A stretch of DNA of 64,000 bases from Hyphomicrobiales bacterium (lineage in GTDB: Bacteria > Pseudomonadota > Alphaproteobacteria > Rhizobiales > Beijerinckiaceae), in NCBI GenBank assembly GCA_003963405.1, contig RXIY01000035.1, positions 1 to 64,000 on the forward strand, in the 5' to 3' direction. The position numbers and the translations under genes are program-made. The notes beneath the pieces were generated by a model. It searched no databases and was not told the DNA's origin. It was given only the letters and a program-made list of their open reading frames with translations. Shown one piece after another: positions 11,534 through 56,853 of the stretch. Position 1 is the first letter of the stretch. Each line of letters begins with the position of its first letter.

Positions 11534-11573
11534 ACCGCGTTAATTTGAATCCTCTAACGGAGGACTATTAGGC

Positions 11574-11630: not shown

Positions 11631-11719
11631 GACTACAGAGAATCACTTTCGAGAATCGCTGTCAAGAGTCAACGTCGTTTCGACGGGCAAGCTTCTGTTG
11701 CCTGAAGTCAGGCATCCCA

Positions 11720-28590: not shown

Positions 28591-28951
28591 TTAGGTAGGA
28601 CTTCCTTCTTGCCGCTGGCCTGCTCCTCGTGGCCACCACCCAGGCCTTGGCGTCGCGCCCGTAGTTGGTCAAACAGTTGTGTTTGAGCGGGAAGCACAAC
28701 AAAGGCGCCGCCCGGGTTAGCTCATCCATATGAACCGCGATAAAGCTCCGCTGAAGCGGACACCTGCCAGGTTGCAAGATTAACCCACGGATGGTGTTAT
28801 GCGTCTTGGCGGTAATAAGGCCTTTCAGCTCGTTCGATTGGCTGGCGCTCGGGCCAAAAATCCAGGGGGAGGTCAACCTTGCGGATGCCTGTTAATCGAA
28901 ACAAGGGCCTTGGCGGCCGTTCGTGACAAAAAAAACTCCTTTGGGGCCTCG
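28591..28951. other. Spacer before the multicopper oxidase; no gene seen
   Basis: The multicopper-oxidase frame stays open back to 28799, but that extension shows no signal sequence or family similarity, and no other convincing frame exists. I see no clear promoter. Confidence 0.35.
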
Positions 28952-31862: not shown

Positions 31863-32097
31863 AGATTGCTGGGACGTATGCTTGGCGACTGGCGCGACAT
31901 CGACCCGCCGCATCGGGTCCAATGAAGAACTTATTAGATCCATGCTGGAGTCATACGCTGTGGCCTGCTGCCTTTGCGCCGATGAATGCGAAAAGCACGC
32001 CCCTCAGCACGAGCATTACAGGGTCTGTGCAGAAGCCTGCCGGCGCTGCGAGCAAGCCTGCAAAGACGCGCTTCGTTCCCTTGGCGCCACGCATTGA
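31863..32097 (+). pseudogene. Four-helix-bundle copper protein (DUF326), 5' truncated
   Basis: The frame reads DCWDVCLATGATSTRRIGS, then ACCLCADECEKHAPQHEHYRVCAEACRRCEQACKDAL. This is the last two-thirds of a Cys-rich four-helix-bundle copper-storage (Csp-like/DUF326) protein. The normal N-terminal Cys helices are missing, a stop lies just upstream, and no good start codon is present (a TTG at 31882 is the first candidate). It could still make a short Cys-rich peptide, but truncation is the simpler reading. Confidence 0.65.
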
Positions 32098-32209: not shown

Positions 32210-32428
32210 TTAACGGCAGTTCCAGACCCAACCTTTTCCTAAGTCCCAGTCCCAGCAAACGTTGTGGACGTGGCGGCCTTCCTGCTGGCTCCAATCGCGA
32301 TGGCCATGCCGCCAGTGCCCGCCAATGTGTTGCATCGCACTATGTTCTCGGTGCTCCTCGCTCTGCGCTATTACCGGACCGGTAAAGAGCAAAACCGAGA
32401 CGAAACTCGACCACATGATTTTTTTCAT
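32210..32428 (-). CDS. Small secreted HRDW/VCW protein, copy C
   Basis: 72 residues from the ATG at plus 32428, which has GAGGG about 6 bases upstream; the frame is open to 32485. A signal peptide (MKKIMWSSFVSVLLFTGPVIAQ) gives a mature chain of about 50 residues with the pattern GGHWRHGHRDW, then VCWDWDLGKGWVWNC. It is about 70% identical over the mature part to the copy at 47464 and more distant from that at 45690. Two conserved cysteines and many His/Trp suggest metal binding; the function is unknown. Confidence 0.8.
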   Translation of the reverse strand: MKKIMWSSFVSVLLFTGPVIAQSEEHREHSAMQHIGGHWRHGHRDWSQQEGRHVHNVCWDWDLGKGWVWNCR

Positions 32429-32737
32429 CTTTTCCCTCATTTTTTCTGAGTGCGGATCACAAAAGAATAAACTTGGGACAGTCAAAAACGCAACGGCTCA
32501 GATTGACGCATGTCAAAACTGACGCAGCTTGGCTTTATCGTCACCGCGAGGATGGAAAGGAAGGGAACGGTCATTAAAAAGAGGGCGACCCGACTTTCGT
32601 CGCCGCGTCAATGCGAAACTCCCCCTGAAGCGTCTGGCGGCGCGGGTTCAAACTGCTCACCGGCGTTTTCGACCATTACAATTGCTAATCGACCATAGCG
32701 GAAGGCGGTCGCTGGCCCCCAAGTCATAACACGGCCT
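32429..32737. other. No gene recognised
   Basis: Small frames on both strands lack support. It holds the leader of the secreted protein on the minus strand and the 3' flank of the next minus-strand gene. Confidence 0.3.
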
Positions 32738-33556
32738 TCACGACGGAGCAGTGAGATCGCGCGGCGGAAGGAAGAGTCGCGGCTCAGGCTTGTGGTCATA
32801 GTGCTGCTCGAATCCAGCGTAGACCTTAGCAAGGAACCCGTCGCACTCCGACCGCGACAGTTTCGTTTTGAGCATAAGAGCATCAACGATTTGGGTAAGC
32901 TCATCGCGCAAACACCCTAGGCGAGAAGCGGTCGCGTTTTGGAGATCTACCAAAAGAGAGAGGCGCAAGCGGCAGGTTTCATCGGGCGTGAGAGCACGAA
33001 TATCGAATGATTTATGAATATATGATTCCGCCAAGCATTGGGCCGCATGCAAGTTGTTCTCGTCCCCTGTTTTACTCGCTGAGCCCAAGAACAGCCGCTC
33101 CGCTACTCGCGGGGCCAACGCCCGCATTGCGTGCATGGCGTCGATATCGGCGGGCGCGAGTGGGTCGTTGACGTAGTAGGTGAATCCCTTGGGGATCTCA
33201 AATCTGACGTCCGCGCCCCACAGGTCGACCGTGGCGCTTTCGGGCAGGCGGCGCAGCGAAATTCCGAGTGTTCGAAGGCCGGCCGTAGCCGATATCAGCG
33301 CAATGCCTGCAGCGCGCACGGCCGTCCGCCGGCGCCCAGATAAATCAACGACGAACTCGGATTTGCGTAAGCGGCGCATCTGCGCCCGCATTTCTTTCTC
33401 TGCACGAGCCCGTGCCAACTCTCGTCGACCAGCTCGGCGTTGAGCTTCAATATCGCGCTCGCGAGCTTCAACGGACGCGACGTCCACCGGCTCAGTGGGA
33501 GAGACCTTGAGCTTGAGCTTACGGCGCGTGTGAGCGATATATCTGCCCATGCTCAA
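32738..33556 (-). CDS. Hypothetical protein, basic coiled-coil N-terminus
   Basis: 272 residues. Residues 25-75 are a highly charged helix (EARERDIEAQRRAGRRELARARAEKEMRAQMRRLRK), probably a coiled coil. A hydrophobic stretch follows (TAVRAAGIALISATAGLRTLG), then a globular C-terminal domain with no motif I know. It lies between a TonB receptor and a small secreted protein on the same strand but is separated from both, so co-transcription is uncertain. Codon use fits a real gene. A second in-frame start lies two codons in (MSMGR). Confidence 0.6.
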   Translation of the reverse strand: MSMGRYIAHTRRKLKLKVSPTEPVDVASVEARERDIEAQRRAGRRELARARAEKEMRAQMRRLRKSEFVVDLSGRRRTAVRAAGIALISATAGLRTLGISLRRLPESATVDLWGADVRFEIPKGFTYYVNDPLAPADIDAMHAMRALAPRVAERLFLGSASKTGDENNLHAAQCLAESYIHKSFDIRALTPDETCRLRLSLLVDLQNATASRLGCLRDELTQIVDALMLKTKLSRSECDGFLAKVYAGFEQHYDHKPEPRLFLPPRDLTAPS

Positions 33557-33695
33557 GTGTCCCTGATCTGGCGTGAGGCAATGGCGTGCAGGTCTTAGTT
33601 CATAGTTTCCCGCGAAGCCAAATGGAGATCACTGGCAAAATCTTGAAACTTTACCCCTTGCGGCGGGTCCGGCTATCCCACATCCAAATGAGCCC

Positions 33696-36191
33696 TCACT
33701 CCCAAAATTTCACGAGTTTGAATGGCTCCGTCAGGTCTGGGAGCTTGGCGTCGAAGTCGATGGGGCCGCCAAATGTTAATCGCCAGTTCACCGGCTCAAT
33801 CGGATGGCCAATGACGTTCATCACTCCGACTCCGCAATTTGCGGCCGTGACGGGAAGATTTACGAGACCGTTGCAGGCTCGAAAAAGGAGGTCAGTCGGT
33901 ATCAATGAGCCGTATGCATAGGCGATTGATTGCGAGCGGGAGTTGAACATGTTGAAAATATCGAGCTGAAGTTTCCAGCCCTCTTTCCAGCGATAGCCGA
34001 GTCGAGCGTTCACCGTCCCAATAGCGGGGCTCTTGAAATAGCCATCCTCCGTTAACGAGCGAGGACCAATATAGCGATATTTTAGAGCGCCGAACCACCC
34101 CGTCGCCTCGCCCAATTCCAAAGTTGTCGTTGCGATGATCGGCGCGGCGTTGATCAGAAAATTGCCCGGCGCATTGCCAAGGAAAGTGCCCCAAGGCAAC
34201 GCGGTTGGCTGAATGAGCTGTTGGTATAAAAGCGCTTGGTCTTTATCAAAACCGAGGAAGCGCGCGTTGGTCATGGTCAGGTCGCCCTCGAAGCTCAACC
34301 ATGACAACGGACGATAGTGGTTTGTGAACTCGATGCCGATGCGGCGGCTCGGCGGGCCGAAAACCGTGTTACCCGTGTCGCCTGAGAAGACATTCTCGGA
34401 TCGAAGTTGGATCCAGAAGAGCGTAAGGGCGGACTCGAGCTTATCAATCGCCTTGGTCTTGACGCCAACTTCGGCGGCGGTCGAGGGTGAAAGCAGCGGG
34501 CGCTTGGCGACCCATACGTAGCTCAGATCGTCATTGATTTCATTTGTTGAGAAATTTTGCACGGTGCCGCGCGCATCTGTCGAGTGGAAGCCGCGCCCGA
34601 AGTTCAAGTAAAAATCAGTTTTATCATCGAAGGGGTTGAGGATGACGGAGGCCTTCGGGCTGATCAGTTGCGCGCTGCTGTTTCCGCTGTTGTAAGGCGC
34701 GGTATAAAGTTTAATCGGCTGCAACGGGCTATCGTTGAGATAGCCGACAATCGGCGCGTCGGCAGGCGTTTGGTAGCCGCCAACGCTCGCCCAATAATAA
34801 TCATAGCGTGCGCCGGCGATCGTGGTCAGCCAAGGCGCCCATTTCGTCTTCACATCCGAGAGGAGGCTTAAACTCCCTTCAGTCACAAGATCATTGCGCA
34901 GATGGTCGTAAACCGCGCGACGATAGCTGTCCCCTAAACCGACGCGAATGTCATCCCAGCGCGTCTGATAGCCAAAGCGCAATTCTGAGGGATTATCGGC
35001 GAGATTGAACTGGATGCCGTGGATGCCATTCGAGCCTAATATTGTCCTGCGGTCGAATTGACGGAATTGATCCCCCAGGATTGGATTCGTGAGAAAATAA
35101 GTGAAGTTGCTATACATTTGCAACGTCGAGTGGATGGCGTAGGCGTCGACGTGAGAGTAATGGTTATCACTCTTCTGGTCCCAATGTGCCGACAAGCTGA
35201 AGCGCGTTGAATTGGCGCCGTCGGTTGGGTCGATAGCTCCCCAACGGGAGATCAAACCTTGATCCAATGCGCGCAGCGGAATTTGGTCGGTGGAGTTCCA
35301 TCGGTTGGCGTAGGCCATGCCGGTGACGCCAAAACCATCGACTTCCGTGCCGCGCGAATATCTAAGAACCGCGTTTATCTTACGCGCGTCATTAGGAACA
35401 ACCCAAGGACCGTTGTAGAATTGCCCTTCGGCGGCGCCGAGAATATTGCCGCCCATGAACTCCCAGGATTTCATGCCAAATTGGCGAGCAAAACCAAACT
35501 CGCCCGCCGTTGTCGTGAAGACTCCCTGAGGCACTCTGGTCAGATACTGCATGCGCAGCGTGCCGGCGTTTGAGAAATCACCGTCCTCGACATTGTAGGG
35601 GCCTTTTCGGGCGTCGATCGAGGCCAGCAACTCCGGCATGATGAAATTGGCGTCGGCCCAGCCTTGACCATGGCCGTGAGTGCGAGCGTTGATGGGCATA
35701 CCGTCGATATACAAAGCGAGATCTGTGCCGTGGTCGAGGTCGAAGCCTCGCAAATAGTACTGGTTCGCTTTGCCTTCGCCGCTGTGCTGCGTGACCGCGA
35801 GGCCAGGAACGATTTCGAGCGCCTCGCCAGGCCGGTAGAAGGGGATCGTGTTGACCTGCCCGCCGGTGAAGAACCGCTCGCTGGAGGAGGGCATTTGCTT
35901 CGGGCCGACTGGATAGTCGATCTTCGGACCGAGCGCGGTATCCTGCTGCGCCGACGAGTCGAAGCCGTCATTGGCCATCTCGACGACTGGGCTAACGGTA
36001 GGCGGTCCTGAAACTTGAGCCAACGCCCGAACGGGCCGCACCGCGCGCGGCGCTTGTCGATTGGCCGTTCGCTTTATGCTTTGCCCGCCAACGTTGATCG
36101 TGGGTAGCCTCGCCTGGGCGGAGACCTCACTAGCGACAAGCGCCGCGATGAGCGTGATGGCGCAGCTTTTAACAGATTGATTCCACGGCAT
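33696..36191 (-). CDS. TonB-dependent receptor
   Basis: 831 residues from the ATG at plus 36191, where a signal peptide begins (SVKSCAITLIAALVASEVSAQA); the frame is open 13 codons further. Plug domain: QYYLRGFDLDHGTDLALYID and an unusual His-containing NARTHGHGQGWADANF, then a 22-strand-type barrel ending in FKLVKFWE. No FecI/FecR genes are adjacent. In a copper island it may import a metal chelate; the HGHGQGWAD plug motif is shared by a broad receptor group, so the substrate is not known. Confidence 0.88.
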   Translation of the reverse strand: MPWNQSVKSCAITLIAALVASEVSAQARLPTINVGGQSIKRTANRQAPRAVRPVRALAQVSGPPTVSPVVEMANDGFDSSAQQDTALGPKIDYPVGPKQMPSSSERFFTGGQVNTIPFYRPGEALEIVPGLAVTQHSGEGKANQYYLRGFDLDHGTDLALYIDGMPINARTHGHGQGWADANFIMPELLASIDARKGPYNVEDGDFSNAGTLRMQYLTRVPQGVFTTTAGEFGFARQFGMKSWEFMGGNILGAAEGQFYNGPWVVPNDARKINAVLRYSRGTEVDGFGVTGMAYANRWNSTDQIPLRALDQGLISRWGAIDPTDGANSTRFSLSAHWDQKSDNHYSHVDAYAIHSTLQMYSNFTYFLTNPILGDQFRQFDRRTILGSNGIHGIQFNLADNPSELRFGYQTRWDDIRVGLGDSYRRAVYDHLRNDLVTEGSLSLLSDVKTKWAPWLTTIAGARYDYYWASVGGYQTPADAPIVGYLNDSPLQPIKLYTAPYNSGNSSAQLISPKASVILNPFDDKTDFYLNFGRGFHSTDARGTVQNFSTNEINDDLSYVWVAKRPLLSPSTAAEVGVKTKAIDKLESALTLFWIQLRSENVFSGDTGNTVFGPPSRRIGIEFTNHYRPLSWLSFEGDLTMTNARFLGFDKDQALLYQQLIQPTALPWGTFLGNAPGNFLINAAPIIATTTLELGEATGWFGALKYRYIGPRSLTEDGYFKSPAIGTVNARLGYRWKEGWKLQLDIFNMFNSRSQSIAYAYGSLIPTDLLFRACNGLVNLPVTAANCGVGVMNVIGHPIEPVNWRLTFGGPIDFDAKLPDLTEPFKLVKFWE

Positions 36192-36576
36192 TTTTGCTCT
36201 CGCCCCGGCTTGTAGCCGCCAGATGGGCAAAAACTTAACGCCTGGCGCGCAAAGCGCTACCCCAAAGTATGATGAACGCGAAATTTATACATACTGTGTC
36301 TGTCACGCCACAGTAGGCGACGATCACAATAAGGGGCGAGGCGGGCTTAGTTTTCGTCAGCTGGCTATAGCGTACGCCGCGCTCTCGGGAGACTTCCTTT
36401 CGAAAGCGCTTAATACCGCCCGGCCCGCCACGAAGGAAGACAATTTCCATACATGTTCAATGCGAATAGGCACCGCCATTCTCGTCCAGGCTACGAACGT
36501 CGGCGCGAGAACCTGCGGCTTTCCACAGCCAACTGCGAGACTCGGTTTCAAAAGGAAGGGAGCAGCTTGCTGGTCT
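36192..36576. other. No gene; probable promoter region of the receptor
   Basis: The segment before the TonB receptor is AT-richer near 36265-36300, as expected for a promoter, but I cannot assign boxes with confidence. No ORF is supported. Confidence 0.3.
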
Positions 36577-36765
36577 TTACCGCCCCTCAAAATAGAGGAT
36601 GACCAAGCCGATCACAATGATAGCGAGAGTAACATACCAGCTCGAAGAGGCGGGTTGAGGCTCTTTTTCGCGCTGAACTTCTCCAAGCCGAATCCCGCAT
36701 TTGGGGCAGCTAGTAGATAGCTCGTTAACCTCAGCTTTGCAGCCAGGACAGACCAAGCGGGACAT
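36577..36765 (-). CDS. Zinc-ribbon membrane protein
   Basis: 62 residues. An N-terminal zinc ribbon CPGCKAEVNELSTSCPKCG (two CxxC pairs) is followed by a charged linker and one C-terminal transmembrane helix (WYVTLAIIVIGLVILYF). Proteins with this layout are common and mostly uncharacterised. On the minus strand GGGAGG precedes the start by 5-6 bases. Confidence 0.75.
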   Translation of the reverse strand: MSRLVCPGCKAEVNELSTSCPKCGIRLGEVQREKEPQPASSSWYVTLAIIVIGLVILYFEGR

Positions 36766-36872
36766 GCCTCACCTCCCTGACGATTTAGGTGCGCCTATCA
36801 CCCCTCAACTTAAGGGCGCGCATTGGGTTCCGTTAAGCCCCTCCGATGCTTAAGAGATGGTCACGGACATCT

Positions 36873-38168
36873 TCATAGAACGCGTGAGATAGCGTGGATA
36901 CCCTTCAGCCCGGTTCCAAAGCGGGCGATGGCGTCGCGGTGCGTCTCCAATTCGCCATAAGGCAAGTAACGCACTTTCAAATCGCGCACGCGGCTGAACG
37001 CGGGTCTTTGGAGCTGCATTCGAACTTCATTCTCGCGCGCATCAGGGGCCACCAGAAAGAGATTGTCTGTCTCGTGCATCTCGCTGAGCGCGAGATCAAG
37101 CATGCGTACGATGCCCGAATAGATCGAAGTCGTATGTTCGACTTCAAAAGCGGCGCTCACACGCGCTTGGCTCGAGTTGATCCAGAGCACATCGATCAGA
37201 CGGATAGAGTCGGCGCCCGGCAAGCGTTCAAGCGGTTCTGGAAGGCGGTTCAGGCAACCAGAACTTAGCGATTTACCGTCATGTATGCGGCCCCGGTCGT
37301 TCGCCGCGATCCAGACTTCGTAACCGAGCGCCAGGCCAAGATCCCTGAGCCATGCCTGGACTTCGGTATGAGTGCGGTCGTTTGCCTTATCCGCAGCGAG
37401 TGGCCCCTCAAATTTCTTTGCGTTTTCTCGCGCCTTCGATAAATCCGCAAGCCATTCCTCGCGCGCCGAACCGGAGTCGCAGACGGGAGGCGCTGAAAAC
37501 CGGCCAATTCCTATGTCGAACAGGAAGCCGGCGATTGCGCCGAGGTCATTCGACAGGACGTCGCGATACGTCTGGTTCAAGCGTAAAACGCCGAGCCGCA
37601 TTGCGAGATATTGATCCCAGCGGCCAAGCTTTACCTTGGAGCCTGTGACTGCATTGAAGCCTCTCACGATGGCTGTGTTAAACGGCGGCATGATCGTGGG
37701 GTGCAAGAAGTAGAGGAGGTTTGCGACGGCCGGTCCCAAGCCTTTGATTTCAAGGCGGTCAATGGTTTCGATTCCGGCGAGGATCTCCCTCTCAGTTTCG
37801 CAACAGCAGCAATGATGAAGCAAACGGGCAAAGGCCCGTTTGTTTTCCTCGTTTTCGTAGATGTCAGGGATCCGAAGCTTTGGCTTCCACAAAAAGGCGT
37901 GATCAGCGCCTTTGAAAATCTGTCGCTGCTCGGCGATTGACCCCACGATCGTCTCCAGCGAGGAGCCTTTGTAAACGTTGCCAAAGCTTCCGGCCTCAAT
38001 GTCGCTGACAACCAACGAAATGCCGCGCTTGATCGACCGGAAATTCTTGAGGCGTTCCTCCCAGAGAAACCAAGATCTGTACGTGGCGCAAGGATCGTCT
38101 CGCCAACGTGCAATCAAATCCCGGAGTAGGTCCGACAGGGTAATTCCTCCAGGGTATGAAAATGGCAT
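36873..38168 (-). CDS. Helix-hairpin-helix plus nuclease-like protein, unknown
   Basis: 431 residues. Residues about 133-160 look like a helix-hairpin-helix element (LEIKGLGPAVANLLYFL), as in base-excision glycosylases. Residues 265-360 resemble a PD-(D/E)xK nuclease fold: E269 in HTEVQAWL, D326 in IRLIDVLWI, then FEVEHTTSIYSG with E342/E344. This arrangement suggests a DNA-cleaving or DNA-binding protein, perhaps a restriction or defence enzyme acting without a visible methyltransferase partner. There is no close family I can name. An IS element is inserted 91 bp upstream of its start. Confidence 0.6.
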   Translation of the reverse strand: MPFSYPGGITLSDLLRDLIARWRDDPCATYRSWFLWEERLKNFRSIKRGISLVVSDIEAGSFGNVYKGSSLETIVGSIAEQRQIFKGADHAFLWKPKLRIPDIYENEENKRAFARLLHHCCCCETEREILAGIETIDRLEIKGLGPAVANLLYFLHPTIMPPFNTAIVRGFNAVTGSKVKLGRWDQYLAMRLGVLRLNQTYRDVLSNDLGAIAGFLFDIGIGRFSAPPVCDSGSAREEWLADLSKARENAKKFEGPLAADKANDRTHTEVQAWLRDLGLALGYEVWIAANDRGRIHDGKSLSSGCLNRLPEPLERLPGADSIRLIDVLWINSSQARVSAAFEVEHTTSIYSGIVRMLDLALSEMHETDNLFLVAPDARENEVRMQLQRPAFSRVRDLKVRYLPYGELETHRDAIARFGTGLKGIHAISRVL

Positions 38169-38259
38169 TCTCGCAGACTATTTGCTGACGCGCAACATGC
38201 GACTGACATGAACCGATCTGTTGCGAGACCGGGCGCGCGCCATACTGACAGCGCCAAGC

Positions 38260-39538
38260 GGACACCTCGAAAAACCTCGCCGATTTGCCGGCGTCGTGAT
38301 TCAATCGTCGGGCGGCGCGGAGGGAATGGCGATGAGTCGGCAGCCCGGGCTTTTTGATCTGGACGAGCGGTATCGGAAATTGTCGGAGGTCGGCGATCCG
38401 TTGATGCGGCTCAAAGAGCTCATTGACTTCGAAGTCTTCCGCCCGGCGCTCGCCACGGCGGTGAAGCGCTCCAACGGCGCCAAGGGCGGGCGTCCAGCGT
38501 ATGACGCCGTGCTGATGTTCAAGATTTTGATCCTCCAGACGCTCTACACACTCGGCGACGATGCGACGGAGTTCCAGATCCGCGACCGCTTCTCCTTCAT
38601 GCGCTTTCTCGGGCTCGAGCTGCATCACGCCGTGCCCGACGCCAAGACGATCTGGCTGTTTCGCGAGCAACTCGCGAAGGCCGGCGCGATCGACGCGCTG
38701 TTCGAAAGCTTCGACGCGCATCTGAAGACGCAAGGCTTTCTCGCCATGTCGGGGCAGATCGTGGACGCGACCCTCGTCGCCGCGCCGCGTCAGCGCAACA
38801 CCGACGACGAGAAAAAGGCGATCAAGGAGGGGCGCATTCCGGACGACTGGAAGGCGAAGCCGAAAAAGCTGGCGCAGAAGGATCGCGACGCGCGCTGGAC
38901 GTTGAAACGCGCCAAGGCGCGGCCGGCGAAGGACGGCGAGAAGGCCAAAGTGGAAATCGCGATCCCAGTGTTCGGCTACAAGAACCACGTCTCGATAGAC
39001 CGCGCCCATGGGCTCATCCGGCGCTTCGCGGTGACGAACGCCGCGGCGCACGACGGCGCGCGGCTCCCCGAGGTTCTCGACAAGAGCAACACGGCGAGCG
39101 CCGTTTGGGCGGACACGGCTTATCGTTCGCACGCCAACGAAAAGCACATGGAGAGATGCGGCTTCGTTTCGAAGGTCCACTTCCGGCGGCGCAGGGGAGC
39201 GCCGCTGACGACGGCGCAGGCGAAGGCCAACGCAGCGAGATCGAAAGTGCGCTCGGCGGTGGAGACGGTCTTCGCCGCGCAGAAGCATCGCTTCGGATTG
39301 TTCGTGCGAACCATCGGCGCGACGCGCGCCAGGGTGAAGATCGGCCTCGCCAACATCGCCTACAACGTCACGCGCTTTATCTGGCTCTCGACCCGGCCCG
39401 TTGCGGCATGAACGCCGAGGCCGCCGCGACACGCGGCCGCCTTACAGACGCAGCATAGGCTGCATTCCCCCCGTCAAAGCGCCAGGCGCGCCGTTCTCAC
39501 GTCGCCGCAGCCGCTGAAGACGGTTTTTCGAGGCGTCC
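38260..39538 (+). mobile_element. Complete IS5-family insertion sequence
   Basis: Terminal inverted repeats GGACACCTCGAAAAACC (38260-38276) and GGTTTTTCGAGGCGTCC (39522-39538) match at 16 of 17 positions. Both ends are flanked by AAGC (38256-38259 and 39539-39542), a 4-bp target duplication. The 1279-bp element carries one intact transposase gene, so insertion looks recent. Confidence 0.88.
38332..39411 (+). CDS. IS5-family transposase
   Basis: 359 residues from the ATG at 38332, 7 bases after GGAGGG. DDE residues: D145 (GQIVDATL), D261 (WADTAYRS) and E311 (SAVETVF). The N-terminal region (QPGLFDLDERY) and the central VAAPRQRN are typical of the family. It is intact and likely active. Confidence 0.92.
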   Translation: MSRQPGLFDLDERYRKLSEVGDPLMRLKELIDFEVFRPALATAVKRSNGAKGGRPAYDAVLMFKILILQTLYTLGDDATEFQIRDRFSFMRFLGLELHHAVPDAKTIWLFREQLAKAGAIDALFESFDAHLKTQGFLAMSGQIVDATLVAAPRQRNTDDEKKAIKEGRIPDDWKAKPKKLAQKDRDARWTLKRAKARPAKDGEKAKVEIAIPVFGYKNHVSIDRAHGLIRRFAVTNAAAHDGARLPEVLDKSNTASAVWADTAYRSHANEKHMERCGFVSKVHFRRRRGAPLTTAQAKANAARSKVRSAVETVFAAQKHRFGLFVRTIGATRARVKIGLANIAYNVTRFIWLSTRPVAA

Positions 39539-39849
39539 AAGCGTTTTTAGAAGGCCGAAAACCTCACTTTTGTTGCGCAGGCCTCTCGCCAATTGCATAG
39601 GCGGTCGAACCTAGGCTCAGGCGGGCGAGTGCTGCACGAAGGACAGCCTCGCAAGCGCGCTAACGGCGCGGCGGAAAAGGACAGAATGGCCCGCGTCTCA
39701 GCCGACGCGTTGCGTTTAATGGTCGTCAGTGTTTGCACCGAATCTGCAAAGCTTCCGCCTGAGCGCCGCAAGCAGGCCACCTGTCCCGCGCGCTGGAGGC
39801 CTTGATCTAAATGGCCTATGATTAAGTCCCGCGTTCCCAGATTGGGAGT
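39539..39849. other. No gene recognised
   Basis: Sequence between the IS element and the DUF2933 gene; the only ORF here has no plausible ribosome-binding site or motif. Confidence 0.35.
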
Positions 39850-40083
39850 ATGACGCGTCCGGAGCAGCCAAAAATGCGATTTTCACTTCCGCGAACCCCC
39901 CTCCTGCTTCTCTACGGACTGGCAGCCGCATTTCTTGTTTATTGGCATTGGCGGCACATTCTTGACGCTCTCCCATTTTTAGTCGTCCTCGCATGCCCGC
40001 TGATGCATCTCTTCATGCACCATGGACACGGCCATCGCCACGACGCGCCGCCTGAAAATCACAGAGAAACGAAAATTGACTAG
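39850..40083 (+). CDS. DUF2933 small membrane protein
   Basis: 77 residues with two hydrophobic segments (TPLLLLYGLAAAFLVYWHW; ILDALPFLVVLACPLMHLFMHH) ending in the His-rich tail HHGHGHRHD. The CPLMHLFMH motif is the DUF2933 hallmark. It lies 21 bp before the copper ATPase and is probably its partner. A second paralogue is at 57877. Confidence 0.82.
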   Translation: MTRPEQPKMRFSLPRTPLLLLYGLAAAFLVYWHWRHILDALPFLVVLACPLMHLFMHHGHGHRHDAPPENHRETKID

Positions 40084-40104
40084 GTTGAGCTGAGCGGGGA
40101 AGTC

Positions 40105-42396
40105 ATGGGGCACGAGCATCATCACCATCGTCATCACTCAGACCCCGCCGAGCATAAGACGCATTCTGATCTGCGACCTTCGCATGCCTCTTCCAGCCAA
40201 TCTGGCAAGGGTGACCAGAGCCCCACGCCTGCCGGAGAAGGCGCCATCTACACTTGTCCCATGCATCCGCAAATTCGCCAGGTCGGCCCCGGAAACTGCC
40301 CGATCTGCGGGATGACGCTCGAGCCCGTCATAGCCGCCGTAGAAGAGGGACGAAGCGCCGAGCTCATAGATATGACGCAGCGGTTCTGGGTTGGGTTGGC
40401 GTTGACGATTCCTGTCTTCCTGCTCGAGATGGGCGGCCACTTCTTCAATCTTCATGATTATATTTCGCCCGAAGAGTCCGGGTGGGTGCAGTTTGCCTTG
40501 GCGACACCGGTGGTCTTGTGGGCCGGTTGGCCATTTTTCGTCAGAGGCGCCAAGTCACTGCTCACTCGGCGCCTCAATATGTTCACCCTCATCGCCATGG
40601 GCACGGGCGTCGCGTGGACCTACAGCGTTATCGCAGCTTTTGTGCCCGCAATCTTTCCAGCGACGTTTCGCAGCGCCGAGGGCGCGGTTCCTCTCTATTT
40701 CGAGGCGGCGGCCGTCATCACCGTGCTCGTGCTCCTTGGACAAGTTCTTGAATTGCGCGCCCGCGAACAGACCGGGGGCGCTATCCGCGCTTTGCTTAAC
40801 CTTGCGCCCGTCACAGCGAAGCGTGTTCGCGACGACGGCTCTGACGAGGAGGTCGCGCTGGATCAGGTCAGCGTGGGCGACCGCCTGCGTGTGCGTCCTG
40901 GAGAGAAGGTGCCGGTCGACGGGGCTCTTGTCGAGGGCCGAAGCTCGGTGGACGAGTCCATGGTGACGGGCGAGTCCATGCCGGTGACCAAGAGCGTTGG
41001 CGACACTGTCATCGGCGGCACGCTCAACCAGACTGGCGGCTTCATCATGAGAGCAGACAAGGTTGGCAGCGACACGATGCTTTCCCGCATCGTCGACATG
41101 GTCGCTTCCGCCCAGAGAAGCCGCGCGCCAATCCAGCGCCTCGCTGATCAGGTCTCCGGCTGGTTCGTCCCTCTTGTCATCCTCGTCGCGCTGTTTGCGT
41201 TTGGCGCCTGGTCGATCTGGGGGCCGGAGCCCCGCATGAGCTATGGGCTGATCGCAGCCGTCTCGGTTCTCATCATCGCCTGTCCCTGCGCCCTTGGCCT
41301 CGCGACTCCGATGTCGATCATGGTAGGCGTGGGGCGCGGCGCGCAATTGGGCGTCCTGATCAAGAACGCCGAGGCGCTCGAGCGGCTCGAGAAGATCGAC
41401 ACGCTCGTTATCGACAAGACCGGCACGCTGACAGAGGGCCGGCCTCGCGTAACGGCCATCCGGCCGGTCGCGGAAATAACAGAAAACGAACTTCTAAGAG
41501 TCGCGGCGAGCCTGGAGCGCGCAAGCGAGCATCCGCTTGCGCACGCGATCGTCAAGGCGGCCTCAGACCGTGACTTGAGCCTTTCAGAGGCGACGGACTT
41601 TAATTCGCCGGTCGGAAAGGGGGTGACAGGCCGGATCGGCGAGTCGGCGGTCGTCATTGGCAATCGGCGCTTCCTGGAGGAACTTGCGATCGACGCGGGA
41701 GCGCTCGACGCCGTCGCCGAAGGGCTAAGGGAGGATGGCGCGACGGCAATTTTCGTCGCCGTGGATGGCCGCCCGGCAGGCGTCATCGCGATCGCTGATC
41801 CGATCAAGGAGACGACCCGGGATGCGCTGCAGGCGCTGGTCGATGAAGGAATCTCGGTCGTCATGCTCACGGGCGACAATTGGACATCGGCGCGAGCTGT
41901 CGCGAGGCGCCTGGGCATTTCGGAGGTCGAGGCGGAAATCCTCCCGCAGGATAAGAGCCAGGTTGTCACCCGGCTGCGTCAATCTGGACGGGTCGTCGCG
42001 ATGGCTGGAGATGGCGTGAATGACGCGCCGGCGTTAGCCGCGGCCGATGTGGGCATTGCCATGGGCACAGGCACCGACGTGGCGATCGAGAGCGCCGGCG
42101 TCACCTTGCTTAAGGGGGATTTGCGCGGCATCGTGCGAGGGCGTCGCCTATCGAGGGCGACCATGCGGAACATTAGAGAAAACCTGTTCTTCGCTTTTAT
42201 CTACAATGCAGCCGGCGTGCCTGTCGCGGCAGGCGGGCTATACCAGGTCTTCGGCATTTTGCTGTCGCCGACAATTGCTGCGGCGGCCATGGCGTTGTCC
42301 TCCGTTAGCGTCGTCTTGAATTCACTGAGGCTCAGGCGGGCTCGGATCGAGCCCAAGCGTCTACCAATCATGCCGCCGTTCCCAGGCATCACCTGA
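40105..42396 (+). CDS. copA: Copper-translocating P1B-type ATPase
   Basis: 763 residues. A His-rich start (HEHHHHRHH), a heavy-metal-binding YHS-like domain (YTCPMHP...GNCPICGM, about 49-75) instead of an HMA domain, eight expected membrane helices, the metal site CPC (393-395), phosphorylation site D437 in DKTGTLTEG, and hinge GDGVNDAP from 635. It exports Cu(I) (or Ag) from the cytoplasm. GGGGAAG lies upstream of the ATG. DUF2933 precedes it. Confidence 0.95.
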
Positions 42397-42410
42397 GGAT
42401 GGTTGAAATC

Positions 42411-42860
42411 CTATGGGTCTTGTTCGACGCGTCGGAGGCTGTCGAACGCGCCGAGGAACGGTAGGAGCCCTTCAAGAGCGATGCCCGCAAGCATCCCGAC
42501 GAAAAACAACACGGCCTGAGGATCGAGAAGTCCCAGGTTGAACACCGCTGGTCGGGGACAGACGCCCGAGAGGCCCCAGCCGAGCCCAAAAATCGTTGCG
42601 CCCACGAGCATCTGTCGGTCAACCGCCCGAATTGAGGACGGCTGCGCCGAACAGCCAGTTAGAGGTATTTCCTTCTTTTCCACCATCTGAAATGCAAAAA
42701 ACCCCACCAACACGGCGCCTCCCATCACCAGGGCGAGCGAAGGGTCCCAAAGGCCGAAAATATCAAGAAAACTCAGCACCTTACCTGGATCTGTCATGCC
42801 GCTGACGTAAAGACCCAGACCGAACACGGCGCCGAGGACGAAAGTAAGAAGGATACGCAT
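42411..42860 (-). CDS. YeeE/YedE-like DUF6691 protein
   Basis: 149 residues with four hydrophobic segments; conserved GLYVSGMTDPGKVLSFLD and GLGWGLSGVCPRPAVF, the second with the cysteine of the YeeE transport pore. Usually encoded with the YeeE protein just upstream, as here (12-bp gap). The pair imports sulfur compounds such as thiosulfate, or related species, in studied relatives. It is convergent with the copper ATPase. Confidence 0.85.
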   Translation of the reverse strand: MRILLTFVLGAVFGLGLYVSGMTDPGKVLSFLDIFGLWDPSLALVMGGAVLVGFFAFQMVEKKEIPLTGCSAQPSSIRAVDRQMLVGATIFGLGWGLSGVCPRPAVFNLGLLDPQAVLFFVGMLAGIALEGLLPFLGAFDSLRRVEQDP

Positions 42861-42872
42861 TTTCTCGGTCCT

Positions 42873-43302
42873 TTACCCGATCACGTGCCGAACGACGAAA
42901 ACGGTCGTCATCGCTGATCCCATAAAAGTGCACGTCGCGACCAATGATCGCAGCGAGAGGCGGGACAGGCCGCACTCCATGTCCGCTCGTGCAACCGCCG
43001 CCGAGGCGCGAACCGAAGCCAACCAGAAAGCCAGCAAACCCGGTCAAGGGGTAAGCGATCTGGAAAGCTGGTCGCGCTGGCGTTTCGAAGAACCCGATCA
43101 GAAGAGCCGACGCGAAGAGGCCAAAGAGGAAGACGATCCGCCAATCAACGTCACCCGGGCGCGGTGGAAACAGCCCCGAGAGGATGCCGCTGATTCCTGC
43201 GACTCGGCCAATGAGAAGCGCCGTCAGCCCTGCAGATCCCCCGATCAGCGCGCCGCCTGCGAGCGCGCTCAAGGGCGAAAAATGCGTCCAGTCGATTTGC
43301 AC
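42873..43302 (-). pseudogene. YeeE/YedE family membrane protein, frameshifted
   Basis: Starts at GTG 43302 with AAGGA upstream. The frame follows the family to GGGCTSGHGV, then shifts: the expected GTGTGC has contracted to GTGC (near 42974), removing two bases. In the other frame the natural end is recovered (GLSRLSLRSLVATCTFM, then VFVVRHVIG, stop at 42873-42875). As it stands the protein loses its last two helices. It could be a recent mutation or a sequencing error. Confidence 0.8.
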
Positions 43303-43449
43303 GTGATTTCCTTCAACAAAAGCAATAGCTTACAGCCCCGCTCGCGGCCCTTCCAGTTATTTTAAGCGCGGAGTTGCTGAGAAGCTATATACAAACACTA
43401 TAAACTATATAATAGTAGTGGTCTAAGGAAGACAGAACAAGGTCGCTTC

Positions 43450-44760
43450 ATGATCCCGTTTCCCCGCCTCGCCGCGTTCCTTCTGGCCGCCGCAACTCTG
43501 AGCACTCACGCCGAGGCCACCGAGGGCTATTTCTTGGAAGGCTATGGCGCGCGCGAAAAAGGCGTTGGCGGCGCCGGCGCCGCAGACTCGCGTGATCCTC
43601 TCGCGTTGTCGATCAATCCAGCCGGCCTCGTGGACGTGAATGATCAATATACGCTTGGCCTCACCGCCTTTTCGCCCGACCGAGGCTATTGGGCCTCAGG
43701 CCCGGGTTTTGTCGCGCCGGGCTTTGTCCAAAGCGGACGTGCCCTCTTTCCCATTCCGAACGGGGGTTATAGCCAGCGCTTCAACCAAACGTCAGCGTGG
43801 GGCGTCGCCGTATATGGCAACGGCGGCATGAACACGACCTACTCGCCGAACTATGTGAGCGAGTTTTTTGGCAGTCCGATGTGCGGCAAGACTGGCGTAT
43901 TCTGTGGCCGCAATGCTGGCGTCGACCTAAATCAGGCCTACATTACCGCTGGCTACGCCCAACGTTTCGGAAATCTTTCCCTAGGTTTTGCGCCGGTGTT
44001 GGCCGTGCAAATCTTCAAAGCAAGAGGCTTGGAGGTCTTCGCGCCTTTTTCGATGGCGCCAGAACAACTCACCAACCATACCTACAACTGGTCTGTGGGG
44101 GCGGGGGTCCGCGCGGGCCTGCAATACCGCGTCACCGACAGTCTTAGGGTCGGCGTCGCCGGCTCCTCGCCCATCTGGATGTCGCCCTTTGAGAATTACA
44201 AAGGCTTGTTCGCCAATCGAGGCGACTTCGACATTCCCGCAAATATCACGGCGGGCGTTGCCTATGATATCCTGCCGACCTTCACCCTGCTGGCCGACTG
44301 GAAGCATATTTTCTATTCTCAGGTTCCCTCCGTCGGCAATTGGTCGACGGAACAATTGCCGCTTGGCGCCATCGGCGGTCCGGGATTTGGCTGGCGCGAC
44401 ATCAACGTGATCAAAGTCGGCGCGGAATATCGCGGGTTCGAGAAGCTCACTCTTCGACTAGGCTACAGCTACAACAACAATCCCATCAACCCGCGTGACG
44501 TCACGCTGAATATTCTTGCGCCCGCTGTGACGAAGCATCACATCAGTGGCGGCCTCAGTTATTTTGTGACGCCTTCGTCGTCGATTGATCTGGCCGTAGT
44601 CGTTTCGCCGCAGGCTACGGTGTCGGGTGTCGAGCGCACGCCGCTTGGACCCAATCCCATGCGGACGATCACGCTTTACCTCAACTCGTTCGAAGTCACG
44701 GCAGGATGGACGCACCGCTTCGATGCGGCGTCAACAACTCCTGTCACCGCAAGATTCTAA
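43450..44760 (+). CDS. OmpP1/FadL-type outer-membrane transporter
   Basis: 436 residues. A signal peptide (about 1-22) precedes the FadL-family start EGYFLEGYGAREKGVGGAGAADSRDPLALSINPAGL, which forms the N-terminal hatch, followed by a 14-stranded barrel ending in an aromatic residue (VTARF). These porins take up hydrophobic molecules such as fatty acids or aromatics. CTATATA repeats (43385-43391 and 43405-43411) lie in the divergent promoter shared with yeeE. Confidence 0.88.
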   Translation: MIPFPRLAAFLLAAATLSTHAEATEGYFLEGYGAREKGVGGAGAADSRDPLALSINPAGLVDVNDQYTLGLTAFSPDRGYWASGPGFVAPGFVQSGRALFPIPNGGYSQRFNQTSAWGVAVYGNGGMNTTYSPNYVSEFFGSPMCGKTGVFCGRNAGVDLNQAYITAGYAQRFGNLSLGFAPVLAVQIFKARGLEVFAPFSMAPEQLTNHTYNWSVGAGVRAGLQYRVTDSLRVGVAGSSPIWMSPFENYKGLFANRGDFDIPANITAGVAYDILPTFTLLADWKHIFYSQVPSVGNWSTEQLPLGAIGGPGFGWRDINVIKVGAEYRGFEKLTLRLGYSYNNNPINPRDVTLNILAPAVTKHHISGGLSYFVTPSSSIDLAVVVSPQATVSGVERTPLGPNPMRTITLYLNSFEVTAGWTHRFDAASTTPVTARF

Positions 44761-44874
44761 CCTCTCCCCCAGTTTGGCCTGACGCCTTCGGGATCAAGTC
44801 CCTTGTCCAAGGTTCCACCAATCAGCCTCGTCGGGCACTCAGCCTCATCACTGTGAAAAAGGAGAAAATACCGG

Positions 44875-45369
44875 ATGTCCGTCACTGAGCTCGTCAACAC
44901 CGCCAAGTCGATCTTCTCATCCAACCCGGATCGAGCCCAAGCGAGATTCAGAGCGCATCATGACCTTACAGGACCGACGGAAGTAACTGTCAAGGTAGGC
45001 TCAGGCCACCGTTTTTCAGTCGACGAACCTGAAGCCTTGGGCGGCGGCAACTCGGCAGCCAATCCTGTGGAGTACGCCTTGGCTTCGCTCGGTTCCTGCC
45101 AGGCGATCAGCTACAGGGTTTGGGCTTCGCAACTTGGACTCGAGCTCGAAAAGGTCGAGGTGGAAATCGAGGGTGATATCGACCTGCGGGGGTTCTTTGG
45201 CGTCGATGAAACTGTTCGACCCGGTCTCAACGCCGTTCGCATGCGAGTGCGCTTAACGGGACCTGAACCCGATGCTCGGTATGAGGAACTTGCAGCGGCC
45301 GTCGACGCCCATTGCCCGGTGCTCGATCTCTTTCGCAACCCAGTCTCCGTTGAGCGAGAATTGGCGTAG
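44875..45369 (+). CDS. OsmC/Ohr-family peroxiredoxin-like protein
   Basis: 164 residues. Two redox cysteines are placed as in the family (SLGSCQAISYR and DAHCPVLDL). OsmC proteins reduce organic hydroperoxides; some members are linked to sulfur metabolism. AAAAAGGAG 10 bases before the ATG supports the start. It is not obviously co-transcribed with the FadL gene. Confidence 0.9.
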   Translation: MSVTELVNTAKSIFSSNPDRAQARFRAHHDLTGPTEVTVKVGSGHRFSVDEPEALGGGNSAANPVEYALASLGSCQAISYRVWASQLGLELEKVEVEIEGDIDLRGFFGVDETVRPGLNAVRMRVRLTGPEPDARYEELAAAVDAHCPVLDLFRNPVSVERELA

Positions 45370-45689
45370 CTCTCCAGGGTCAGCCACCACCCTTGCCGGT
45401 CGGCCCACGTCCCCCTGCGAGTTTGGAGCGGTAGGGCCTTAAGTCTGCCGCAGGCAATCGAGCGAGCCGCATTTCTCAGACCTGCCTCGCGCGGGTTTGG
45501 GAGGTCGTCCCGGTGCGCCTGATAAGTGAGCTTGGCCAAGGAATCCGCCTGCACGGCCTCCCGTTTTCTCCTTCGACGCGCGCCCTAGATCATTTCAATA
45601 CCCGGTCGCCCTTGGTCTGTCTGTAACGCAGCGCCGGCCATCGGCCTGGGGCGGACAAAGCGGGAAAACCACCAGGCAAAGGCAATCAG
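45370..45689. other. No gene recognised
   Basis: Spacer upstream of the small secreted protein, with no supported frame or clear promoter. Confidence 0.3.
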
Positions 45690-45911
45690 ATGCGCAAGCT
45701 CGCTTTCCTAACCGCAGCAGCGTTGCTACTTGCTGCTCCCGTGGCTCAGGCCCAGCATGCCGGCCCGTTCCCCGGCAGTGGGAATTTGCAGAATTACGGT
45801 GGGCATTGGCGATATCAGCACCGCGATTGGAGCCGTCCTTGGGGTCCGCCTAACCCCGGCGTATGCTGGGAGTGGAATTCTTACATGGGCCAATGGGAGT
45901 GGCAGTGCTAG
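45690..45911 (+). CDS. Small secreted HRDW/VCW protein, copy A
   Basis: 73 residues. A signal peptide (MRKLAFLTAAALLLAAPVAQAQ) and a mature region GGHWRYQHRDWSRPWG, then VCWEWNSYMGQWEWQC. It shares the GGH-R-HRDWS and VCW-W-G-W-W-C framework with the copies at 32210 and 47464 but has fewer histidines and a Pro/Gly-rich middle. Two cysteines may form a disulfide. Unknown function. Confidence 0.75.
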   Translation: MRKLAFLTAAALLLAAPVAQAQHAGPFPGSGNLQNYGGHWRYQHRDWSRPWGPPNPGVCWEWNSYMGQWEWQC

Positions 45912-46319
45912 GAAACCCCCAAAGCTGCCGAGCGGGTGGGAGCCATCGGGCTCGCCGTTGATCTTGTAGACGAGGCGCGGCTTCGCGCCCGCTCTCTCCG
46001 CGACCCCCCAGGCCATCAGCGCCCGAAGCTCGGTCGCGCGTCAATCCGATTGATCTTGGCGCGTTTGCCGCGGCGATCGACCAACAGGCTACGGGACCGA
46101 TCTGCGGCGGGATACCGTGCCCGGTCGGTGTGCCATGTATCGCGCTTCGTCGCAGACGACGACGGTGTTGACGCCGTCGGTGATCAGCCTAACCCGGAGC
46201 GCCAGAAGCGCACCAACATCGCCGCAACCCACCACTTCAGTGCGATCTTGTGAGCCAGTCGCATATACAAGCCGACTGCCTCCTTCGACCGACTTTTTGC
46301 ACCTAAACGCAGAATCTCT
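45912..46319. other. Unassigned stretch beside an IS element
   Basis: Several overlapping ORFs, none with recognisable domains; probably degraded DNA interrupted by the IS. Confidence 0.35.
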
Positions 46320-47257
46320 AAGAGTCTGTCCGGAAAGATCATGCAGGATTGCATAATCTTCGCAGCATGAAGCGGATAGATGCGAGGCGGAGGAAGGCGA
46401 GGCCTCTGCGCGAGAGGCATTCCCAATCCTTCGCGAGCCGTCGACATCTGCCGAGCCAAGCGAATGTCCTCTCGACGACCCAGCGTTTGGGAAGAACAAC
46501 AAAGCCTTTGACGTGGTCGGAACGTTTCACGATCTCGACGTTCACACGCGCGAGGACTTTCTTCATTGCGCCTCGAAACTCCGGGCCCTGGTAGCCGCCA
46601 TCGGCATAGAGCTTGAGCAAAAAGGGGAAGGCGCCGAACAGGGTCGCCATGACCAATGCGCCGCCATCGCGATCCTGGACGTCCGCCGCGTGAACGAGCG
46701 CGTGCATCAGGAAACCTTGCGTATCGACGAGAATATGGCGCTTCTTGCCTTTGATTTTCTTCCCCGCGTCGTAGCCGGCGGGGTCGCTCGCCGAGCCCCC
46801 TTTTCAGCGCTCTTGACGCTCTGGCTGTCGATAATCGCGGCGGTCGGGCTTGCCTCGCGCCCTTCCTTCTCCCGGCAAGCGAGATAAAGCGCTTCGTGAA
46901 TGCGCATGAGCGTGCCATCCCAATCCCACAAGTCGAAATAGTCGTAGACGGTCGATCGCGGGGGCAAATCCTTCGGGATCGCCCGCCATTGGCAGCCGGT
47001 GCTCGGCACGTAAAGCAAAGCGTTGACGATCTCCCGCAAGTTCACCGAGCGTTTGTTGCCCCCGCGCTTGGCCGGAGGAATGAGGGGCTCCACGTGAGCC
47101 CATTCTTCGTCCGTTAAATCGCTGGGGTAACGCAACTTGCTGCGATCGTAGCGACCGCGATTTTCATCCGTCCACATCGGCGACCTGTCATCGAATCAGA
47201 TCGCTCTTTGAATCACAACGCATTCATGCGATTCAATGTTTTTCCGGACAGGCTCTA
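46320..47257 (-). mobile_element. IS5-family (IS427-like) insertion sequence
   Basis: Ends TAGAGTCTGTCCGGAAA (46320-46336) and its near-inverse TTTCCGGACAGGCTCTA (47241-47257) differ at one position over 17 bp. TA is shared at both borders, so the exact target duplication (2-3 bp) cannot be fixed. The transposase is on the minus strand in two overlapping frames. Confidence 0.82.
46339..47177 (-). CDS. IS5-family transposase in two frames (putative -1 frameshift)
   Basis: The first frame (47177-46707) encodes 156 residues (YPSDLTDEEWAHVEPLIPP; IIDSQSVKSAEKG). The second frame (stop at 46339) completes the protein: HALVHAADVQDRDGG, LYADGGYQGP and PKRWVVERTFAWL with the DDE residues. The switch lies at AAAAGGGGG (46796-46804). 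In frame it reads A-AAG-GGG, a canonical X-XXY-YYZ slippery heptamer, and slipping -1 restores the family sequence KGGSASDP. So it is either programmed frameshifting, common in this IS group, or a one-base loss. Confidence 0.85.
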
Positions 47258-47463
47258 ACACTCAGACTTCGGCCGGCTACCGCGATTGGCGCGCCTCGTT
47301 TTCTATTGAAGCAGCAGGGGCGGGCACAAGCGCCAGGGCGATTTTCTTGGATGGCTTCACGATGAAACCGGCCAGGCTCCTTCAAAACCTGTGGTATAGT
47401 CGCCACTTACTGATCAGGGTGAGCTGATTAAGCGCGCCCAAAGCCTGAAAAAAGGGGGAGAAC

Positions 47464-47685
47464 GTGCGTAAACTTTCGCTTTCGATCGCCGCCTTGCTGT
47501 TCGCGGCCTCCGGCCCTGCTATGGCGCAAAGTGACGAAAATCGCGAACATAGCGCGATGCAGCATATCGGTGGCCACTATCGGCATATGCACCGCGACTG
47601 GAGCGGGCAGGAGGGACGCCACACGCACAGTGTCTGCTGGAACTGGGACCCTGGGCATGGCTGGGTGTGGAGCTGCAACCGGTGA
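47464..47685 (+). CDS. Small secreted HRDW/VCW protein, copy B
   Basis: 73 residues from a GTG with GGGGGAG about 4 bases upstream. A signal peptide (RKLSLSIAALLFAASGPAMAQ) precedes a mature part HSAMQHIGGHYRHMHRDW, then VCWNWDPGHGWVWSC. Nearly the same as copy C at 32210 (EHSAMQHIGGH and GWVW shared). Seven histidines and two cysteines in about 50 residues suggest metal binding. Confidence 0.8.
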   Translation: MRKLSLSIAALLFAASGPAMAQSDENREHSAMQHIGGHYRHMHRDWSGQEGRHTHSVCWNWDPGHGWVWSCNR

Positions 47686-49553: not shown

Positions 49554-49955
49554 ATGAGCACTTTCATTTCGCGAGGACTCGCTGGGTCCTTGCTCGTCCT
49601 GGGGCTTTTCGCGGCGCCGACAGCGGCGCGAGCCGCAATCGGCGACTACGAGTTTAAGCTTGTCAGTGAGCAGGCCAAAAAGGGACAGACCGTCGTCGAC
49701 GTCCGGCTGATCCACAAGCCTCATGCGAAACCAGTTCCTGACGCCGTCGTCTTCGCCATGCGTCTCGACATGGCGCCAGACGACATGGAGGCAATGACCG
49801 GCGCGATCGAGCAGGTCGAAAGCTCGGAGCCTGGCGTCTACCGGTTCAGGGTCGCGCTGACTGACGAGGGGCGTTGGCGTATCTCGCTCGCGGCGAAGGT
49901 CCAGGGGGAGGCTGAGACGCTGCAAGGCCGCTTGGTGCTGAAGGCGACGCCATGA
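49554..49955 (+). CDS. FixH/YtkA-like periplasmic protein
   Basis: 133 residues from the ATG at 49554, with GGAGAG upstream; the longer frame to 49479 lacks support. A signal peptide ending in ARAA precedes a beta-rich YtkA-like domain (VDVRLIHKPHAKPVPDAVVFAMRLDMAPDDMEAM; YRFRVALTDEGRWRISLAA). Such proteins are often the first gene of CusCBA-type operons and may bind copper through their Met residues. ATGA overlap with tolC. Confidence 0.82.
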   Translation: MSTFISRGLAGSLLVLGLFAAPTAARAAIGDYEFKLVSEQAKKGQTVVDVRLIHKPHAKPVPDAVVFAMRLDMAPDDMEAMTGAIEQVESSEPGVYRFRVALTDEGRWRISLAAKVQGEAETLQGRLVLKATP

Positions 49956-51202: not shown

Positions 51203-51372
51203 CGCGCTTGTCGCTTCGCGCCCAGGGGTTTGAGTACGTCGCGAACGCCCGCGCCTCATGCGCCAATCTCCCCAGAAAAAGCATGGCCCCGTAAAAATCG
51301 ACCTCTGCATGGCGCTGCCTTGAAGGAGAGGGCGCCTCGGCCTAGGTTGATGATCGATCCGCGAGTGACAAG

Positions 51373-51705
51373 ATGGTTCATTGGATCCGCGCACTAATTG
51401 CCGTGTCCGCGTTGGTGGCGTTCTTCGCGGGTGGCGGCCTGTGGTCGGGGAAACCCACCCATGGATGTGATGGCATGGGCATGGAGATGGTCGACTCCAC
51501 GGCCATGGCAGGCGAGGGAAATGACGGCGGGATCATGCCAGGCTGCCCTGCGCTGACATGCGCATCGACACAGTTTTTTCCGCCTCCGCAAACTGATTTT
51601 GCTCTGCCGGTAGTGATCGAGCTCATTTCATCGGCGACGCCGCGAGACGATCTCGAGCGCAGCGGAACCTCCAGACCGCCGAACCTTCGGCCGCCGATTG
51701 TCTGA
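51373..51705 (+). CDS. Small secreted protein of the copper efflux locus, type 2
   Basis: 110 residues with a hydrophobic signal (about 1-26). The mature chain is Met/Cys-rich (HGCDGMGMEMVDSTAMAG; GCPALTCAS) and ends in PPNLRPPIV, the same motif as the protein at 49072. The Met-rich segment resembles periplasmic Cu(I)-binding sequences. Unknown function. Confidence 0.65.
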   Translation: MVHWIRALIAVSALVAFFAGGGLWSGKPTHGCDGMGMEMVDSTAMAGEGNDGGIMPGCPALTCASTQFFPPPQTDFALPVVIELISSATPRDDLERSGTSRPPNLRPPIV

Positions 51706-56828: not shown

Positions 56829-56853
56829 AGCTCTAACAAGGAGAAGAACCATC

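Follow-up and report, generated by a model that had tools for sequence, protein, structure and literature searches.

The 64,000-nucleotide stretch analysed here (the window: positions 1 to 64,000 of contig RXIY01000035.1, from a Hyphomicrobiales bacterium) carries three genes for small, exported-looking proteins with two Cys and a Trp-rich C-terminal segment, members of a family in which we distinguish four groups, A to D. A preliminary description made from the sequence alone had placed three homologous genes for proteins of 72–73 residues here, and all three reading frames were confirmed, at 72, 73 and 73 residues:

32210..32428, minus strand: group A member, 72 residues, with a signal peptide and a 51-residue His- and Trp-rich mature part that holds two Cys
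45690..45911, plus strand: group B member, 73 residues, from the His-poor branch, with two Cys
47464..47685, plus strand: group A member, 73 residues, with a GTG start after a G-rich ribosome-binding-like stretch

With the 47464 protein as query in a search of its own genome, 32210 matched at 71% identity (E 2.2e-29) and 45690 at 41% (E 4.6e-10), in keeping with the earlier view of two close copies and a divergent one. Alignment of the three proteins left 23 invariant columns, including GGH, R, HRDWS, VCW-x-W and W-x-W-x-C, and the common frame, GGH-x-R-x2-HRDWS ... VCW-x-W ... W-x-W-x-C, is the one first described. On balance, we favour the reading that group A and C proteins, 32210 and 47464 among them, are Sec-exported periplasmic accessories of Cus/Cop efflux that handle, and would bind, copper; it draws on an export-like N-terminus, a conserved mature part of about 50 residues, linkage to cusCBA, cusF and copA, and purifying selection.

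Selection by motif from fetched loci gave 67 distinct coding sequences (A 19, B 22, C 12, D 10, other 4) for proteins of about 70 residues with an export signal, the signal peptide being judged by eye and an A-x-[AS] site being present in 62/67; the mature part spans 42–57 residues and holds 0–3 Met. All 67 have [RH]D[WY] and, beyond residue 21, two Cys and no more; W-x-W-x-C occurs in 66 and GGH in 51. This invariance is partly built in because R[HY]x[HKFR][RH]D[WY] and two Cys are part of the selection motif itself. A motif-free check covered 50 distinct open reading frames found by profile alone; with two fragments of a broken copy set aside, both Cys and [RH]D[WY] were present in 48/48 and W-x-W-x-C in 47/48. 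Two further B copies missed by the motif carry RNW and RYW where the others have RDW, so the Asp is not strictly invariant, whereas Arg, Trp and both Cys are. The invariant columns of the 29-row family alignment are R40, R44, D45, W46, C58 and C71. Kept throughout the family, then, are two Cys, Arg and Trp/Tyr, but not His: the mature part averages 7.5 His in A, 9.2 in C, 6.0 in D and 1.95 in B. The conserved Cys pair of the preliminary description therefore holds for the whole family, and its conserved His does not. The C-terminal pattern is C-W-x-W, then 4–6 residues, then W-x-W-x-C, with 11 (C, D), 12 (A) or 12–13 (B) residues between the Cys. In some C and B proteins (L030, L031, L123 and L130), His directly follows the likely cleavage site (AMA-HDPQ, ALA-HDAA), which would give an N-terminal His.

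Median pairwise ratios of non-synonymous to synonymous substitution rates (dN/dS), calculated only from pairs with dS 0.1–2 (55 of them in the case of the mature part of group A), were 0.13 (A), 0.23 (B), 0.09 (C) and 0.34 (D) for the mature part and 0.52, 0.45, 0.27 and 0.34, respectively, for the signal part. The mature part is thus under purifying selection at the codon level, the lack of which, together with a lack of expression, the preliminary description had named as grounds against its reading, and is better kept than the signal in A, B and C and equally kept in D. Ribosome-binding-like stretches, recognised by eye, precede the starts in the upstream sequences, and no shared operator was seen by eye in those sequences as listed by group.

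The family is nearly confined to the methanotrophic genus Methylocystis, to which the window's genome belongs, and is multi-copy and partly plasmid-borne. A three-row profile matched 21 of 298 genomes of the taxonomic family, 20 of them in the window's genus and one outside it (G269, genus g56, E 4.6e-7); a 29-row profile matched 26 of the 39 genomes of the genus, at 97 places, and in a class-level scan of 385 genomes matched the window's own genome alone. The scans of 298 and 385 genomes scored the best 15–19 candidates per genome. When one genome per species of GTDB release 220 was scanned with a pattern, 13 loci came up, 12 in Methylocystis and 1 in Methylocystaceae. When the G269 protein served as query, it found outside the genus and itself four weak matches only (E 0.007–0.009), which we take as chance, and no copper gene was recognised by eye in its 10.6-kb contig. 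Five Methylocystis plasmids carry copies, with no annotated feature beneath any match in a gene table that is incomplete; 93 of the 97 places lack an internal stop and four have one. Among viral contigs, a 54.7-kb IMG/VR entry (L164), which may be a mislabelled plasmid, holds a relative at 34% identity.

The family occupies six places in the window's own genome (4.64 Mb, 122 contigs), not just the three first described as paralogues; beyond the window they lie on C5, on C42 and, as a shortened match, on C56. In a tree of 66 proteins, whose few columns leave many forks open, B, C and D each fall on one side of a branch, and A, C and 'other' are set against B and D. The 47464 protein pairs with a copy in G010 (79% identity, versus 71% to 32210), 32210 clusters with copies from G002, G188 and G213 (78% identity to the G002 copy), and 45690 lies in another branch. 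The two group A copies of the window thus group with copies of other genomes and not with each other, which makes the proposed local triplication unlikely.

Linkage to copper genes was assessed for 96 of the 97 places (the weak place G010:C6:971449 was dropped), with expectations based on rounded genome sizes and an estimated length for contig G010:C6. A Cu-ATPase gene (TIGR01511 over cut-off) lay within 10 kb of 36/96 copies, against 1.71 expected from genome sizes and a maximum of 10 in 200,000 simulations, and 18 of the 26 member-bearing genomes have such a copy. When CusA-type RND genes were added, 46/96 copies were linked (2.17 expected); this set of 34 places, chosen by bit-score class, includes six partial CusA places on member-bearing contigs, and the test is partly circular because these were included for sharing contigs with members, a circularity that the repeat with Cu-ATPases only avoids. 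For comparison, 4/96 copies lay within 10 kb of 39 other RND genes, hand-picked among the matches listed. Linkage differed by group (A 17/29, B 6/30, C 18/21, D 5/16), A, C and D together being linked more often than B (Fisher p 3e-4); in these counts two motif-less places, which have no His count, were assigned to B, and the group labels of two of the remaining 94 were changed after inspection by eye. Linked copies averaged 7.2 His and unlinked copies 4.5 (46 and 48 sequences; p 1.5e-5). The copper linkage of the preliminary description thus stands far above chance, although it does not extend to every copy.

Gene order is most regular in group C, where 17/21 copies start immediately downstream of cusA in the same orientation and three are unlinked. 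Three annotated plasmids, pGW6_1, pGW6_2 and BRCS1 unnamed1, have 36 bp between cusA and the C copy, and the Cu-ATPase gene lies farther on, in two of the three after genes for a copper-binding protein and a DUF411 protein, with intervening small hypothetical genes. Copies of group A stand beside cusF (L117, L118, L098, L126) or upstream of fixH-cusCBA (L119, L122, L124, L127), and four D copies in three loci (L114, L115, L116) close that block, after DUF2933 and ICMT genes. The neighbours in the window are as follows:

9330..13051, plus strand: repABC-like plasmid replication block (RepC 72% identical to an annotated Methylocystis rosea plasmid RepC; RepA and RepB by eye)
28799..30799, plus strand: multicopper-oxidase-type protein (TIGR01480 E 1.8e-42, below cut-off; PF07732 above cut-off at 30011–30337)
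31882..32097, plus strand: short DUF326 (Csp-like) protein, convergent to 32210 (Pfam PF03860, E 1.2e-5, above cut-off)
33696..36230, minus strand: TonB-dependent receptor (Pfam PF00593 and PF07715 above cut-off)
40105..42396, plus strand: copper-type P-type ATPase (TIGR01511 above cut-off at 40522–42336)
46339..47177, minus strand: IS5-type transposase pieces between the two plus-strand members (named by eye)
49554..57213, plus strand: FixH-like/TolC/RND adaptor/CusA/CusF efflux block (CusA: TIGR00914 above cut-off)
57332..57772, plus strand: DUF411 protein (PF04214 above cut-off at 57548–57691)

The FixH-like, TolC and RND adaptor genes were named by eye after similar annotated plasmid genes, and the CusF-like gene (56854–57213) matched NF007348 at E 9.1e-17, below cut-off. 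No family member lies inside the efflux block at 49554..57213. The 81.6-kb contig is most likely plasmid DNA, because it bears the repABC-like block with a RepC 72% identical to that of the M. rosea plasmid.

Searches of Pfam, NCBIfam, PHROG and the PDB returned no credible relative. DUF6705 matched 6 of 29 members (E 0.011 at best, in no listed case above cut-off) and NOVBLXIJ_fam NF052406 covered residues 5–31 only (E 0.0098), both taken as chance or signal-peptide matches; a PDB profile search to E 10 gave two nanobody chains aligned within signal peptides. No title or abstract start among the matches listed from open-licence PMC papers (no bioRxiv) describes the family, which is absent from the passages of a Methylocystis genome paper that mention copper resistance proteins (PMC7716213). 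As far as these libraries and the open literature among the matches listed show, the family appears undescribed, as first proposed.

Several known systems offer points of comparison. HxxM/MxxH is the repeated motif of SilE and PcoE, and at least one such motif occurs in only 20/67 family sequences; we know of no Cys pair or Trp hairpin-like segment in SilE. Both kinds of protein are small, exported and encoded beside an RND/P-type-ATPase efflux cluster, but the family described here has no family match to SilE/PcoE, described as a periplasmic Ag/Cu sponge with a proposed buffering role (PMC7558416; PMC8686694), SilE also as disordered (PMC10656224). CusF/SilF hold Cu(I)/Ag(I) partly through a His and a Trp close to the metal, in a site of His, Trp, Met and Met on a five-stranded barrel (PMC10656224). 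Family copies likewise occupy a gene position inside the cus operon, but a separate CusF-like gene is present besides the members in the window, and no CusF model was among the matches of 29 members at E 0.1. As for such a metal site, the mature part holds 0–3 Met, too few in most members, and the weak models show one hairpin. Nor did the 29 members match Csp (DUF326), a type with Cys-rich helices, at E 0.1; they have two Cys only, and CxxC/CxxxC occurs in 0/67. SmbP is a small metal-binding protein of the envelope whose gene adjoins a family member on an M. rosea plasmid, as a separate gene, and no SmbP NCBIfam model matched among the 29 members at E 0.1. W-x-W, a turn and W-x-W, with Trp paired across the two strands of a hairpin, form the pattern of tryptophan zipper peptides, and the C-terminal W-x-W ... 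W-x-W of the family resembles it; the family segment, however, is natural, flanked by two Cys and only weakly predicted as to fold, whereas tryptophan zippers are designed beta-hairpins (PMC7915549).

How such an accessory might work can be sketched from the sequences and models. Features of the N-terminus suggest export by Sec. The flexible, His-rich N-terminal half would bind Cu ions as they appear in the periplasm, and the CWxW...WxWxC segment may fold as a Trp-paired beta-hairpin that offers an aromatic, Cys and His surface where Cu(I) could bind or docking take place; once loaded, the protein could buffer copper or hand it to CusF/CusB for export. AlphaFold models place a hairpin at residues 33–41/45–49 (A) and 36–41/44–49 (C), at a predicted local distance difference test score (pLDDT) of about 58–69; a C-terminal hairpin is likely, if weakly modelled, and the sequence suggests that it may be Trp-zipper-like. 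The N-terminal half was modelled without confidence, low pLDDT being compatible with SilE/PcoE-like disorder, which gives way to a fold once several metal ions are bound, but not proof of it. Our best reading is of a buffering or chaperone role, like SilE/PcoE or CusF in its working and in neither family. Group B (45690), which keeps the Arg-Trp-Cys frame with few His, probably has a different or weaker metal role. Its surroundings are varied (a hydrogenase-like operon, proB and a patatin-like gene, named by eye), and the largest contig holds 10 of the 17 B copies of near-complete genomes. Two B copies (L119 8315–8536 and L123 6689–6910) adjoin an alternative ATP synthase operon, again named by eye. 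Copper decides which methane monooxygenase methanotrophs use, and little is known of the small copper proteins in their envelope. A family left unnamed by the searched libraries and the plasmid gene table would be a ready candidate for a periplasmic copper handler, with one branch fixed after cusA, and would offer a natural system in which to test whether a Trp/His/Cys mini-protein binds metal.

Several results weigh against the copper-accessory reading. Homologues away from metal genes, which the preliminary description had named as evidence against a metal role, make up part of the family: 50/96 copies, 24 of the 30 B copies among them, have none of the compared Cu-ATPase and CusA-type genes within 10 kb on their own contig, and only 5/16 D copies are linked. 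Linkage p values are optimistic because copies share ancestry and linked cases are not independent. Mature B proteins carry 0–6 His (mean 1.95, 22 sequences), so that His is not a family-wide feature. The two AlphaFold runs (14 rows each) gave poor models (pLDDT 52; predicted TM-score 0.27–0.28), in which strand limits suggest that the two Cys would lie on opposite hairpin faces, leaving disulfide, dimer or ligand as possible roles. A home-made hexamer gene caller favoured the opposite strand at 32210 and 45690.

Of the alternatives, the one that withstands these data best, although we consider it unlikely, is an envelope or redox protein unrelated to metal, whose copper linkage reflects shared carriage on mobile plasmids or islands. 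The retention of Arg, Trp/Tyr and Cys, but not His, and the mostly unlinked group B would suit such a protein, as would the finding that in 11 near-complete genomes 22/47 copies lie outside the largest contig, in roughly 13% of the DNA (one length estimated). Yet the position of group C directly after cusA is too exact for mere co-carriage, main-contig copies of G022 and G307 also stand beside CusA or Cu-ATPase genes, and the hand-picked other RND genes rarely have a copy nearby.

The window's TonB-dependent receptor, 1.3 kb from 32210, raises the improbable alternative of a released copper carrier, a His/Trp/Cys protein that leaves the cell, takes up copper and is recognised by the receptor as a non-modified counterpart of methanobactin, whose precursor peptide is encoded beside the modification enzymes MbnB/MbnC. 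Copper is central to methanotrophs, and similar pairings recur: the copy on C5 of the same genome and its G322 counterpart (L048, L107) have a TonB-dependent receptor about 40 bp off (46% similar to the window receptor), a group A copy in L121 lies near a split receptor gene, Plug-domain matches stand about 1.4 kb from group A copies in G188 and G213, among the matches listed, and L098 has a receptor nearby by weak 27% similarity. However, the linkage found in the tests is mainly to efflux genes, group C has its place within the cus operon and no release signal is known. A fuller version, in which the His-rich branch is a released, unmodified carrier with a natural Trp-zipper hairpin and a dedicated TonB receptor, spread in Methylocystis on repABC plasmids, strikes us as more doubtful still; if true, it would be a second, ribosomally made copper route beside methanobactin.

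We regard as very unlikely a CutF-like sensor, in which translation of the nascent exported protein senses periplasmic copper and controls a downstream gene. Family proteins resemble CutF-like proteins in being small, exported and beside copper genes, with a signal peptide (by eye) and a length under 150 residues, but the PP motif within the last 15 residues that defines the class (PMC9973294) occurs in 0/67; moreover, group C follows cusA, the mature part shows conservation, and for many copies no adjacent copper gene was recognised. Finally, unexpressed or chance reading frames, suggested by the two of three window genes that the hexamer caller missed, the four places with an internal stop and the missing plasmid annotation, are hardly credible given purifying selection, the ribosome-binding-like stretches and the 93 places free of stops.

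The surroundings of the window genes yielded further observations. G307:C2 has the same three members in the same order, with about 620 bp between the counterparts of 45690 and 47464, against about 1550 bp in the window, where the IS5-type transposase intervenes; this insertion therefore looks recent. The G307:C2 copy of the TonB receptor gene (L121 7375–10512) is itself interrupted by an IS5-like element. A polyphosphate kinase 2 gene (L049 2173–2946, L088 3714–4490) lies near copper efflux genes and family members, and an operon resembling the alternative ATP synthase operon (L051) is on the window's own contig outside the window. At 31359–31613, the window encodes a signal-peptide-like protein of His/Gly/Trp/Asp repeats (GHGDWDHHGGW), without a Pfam match, which may be another candidate metal sponge.

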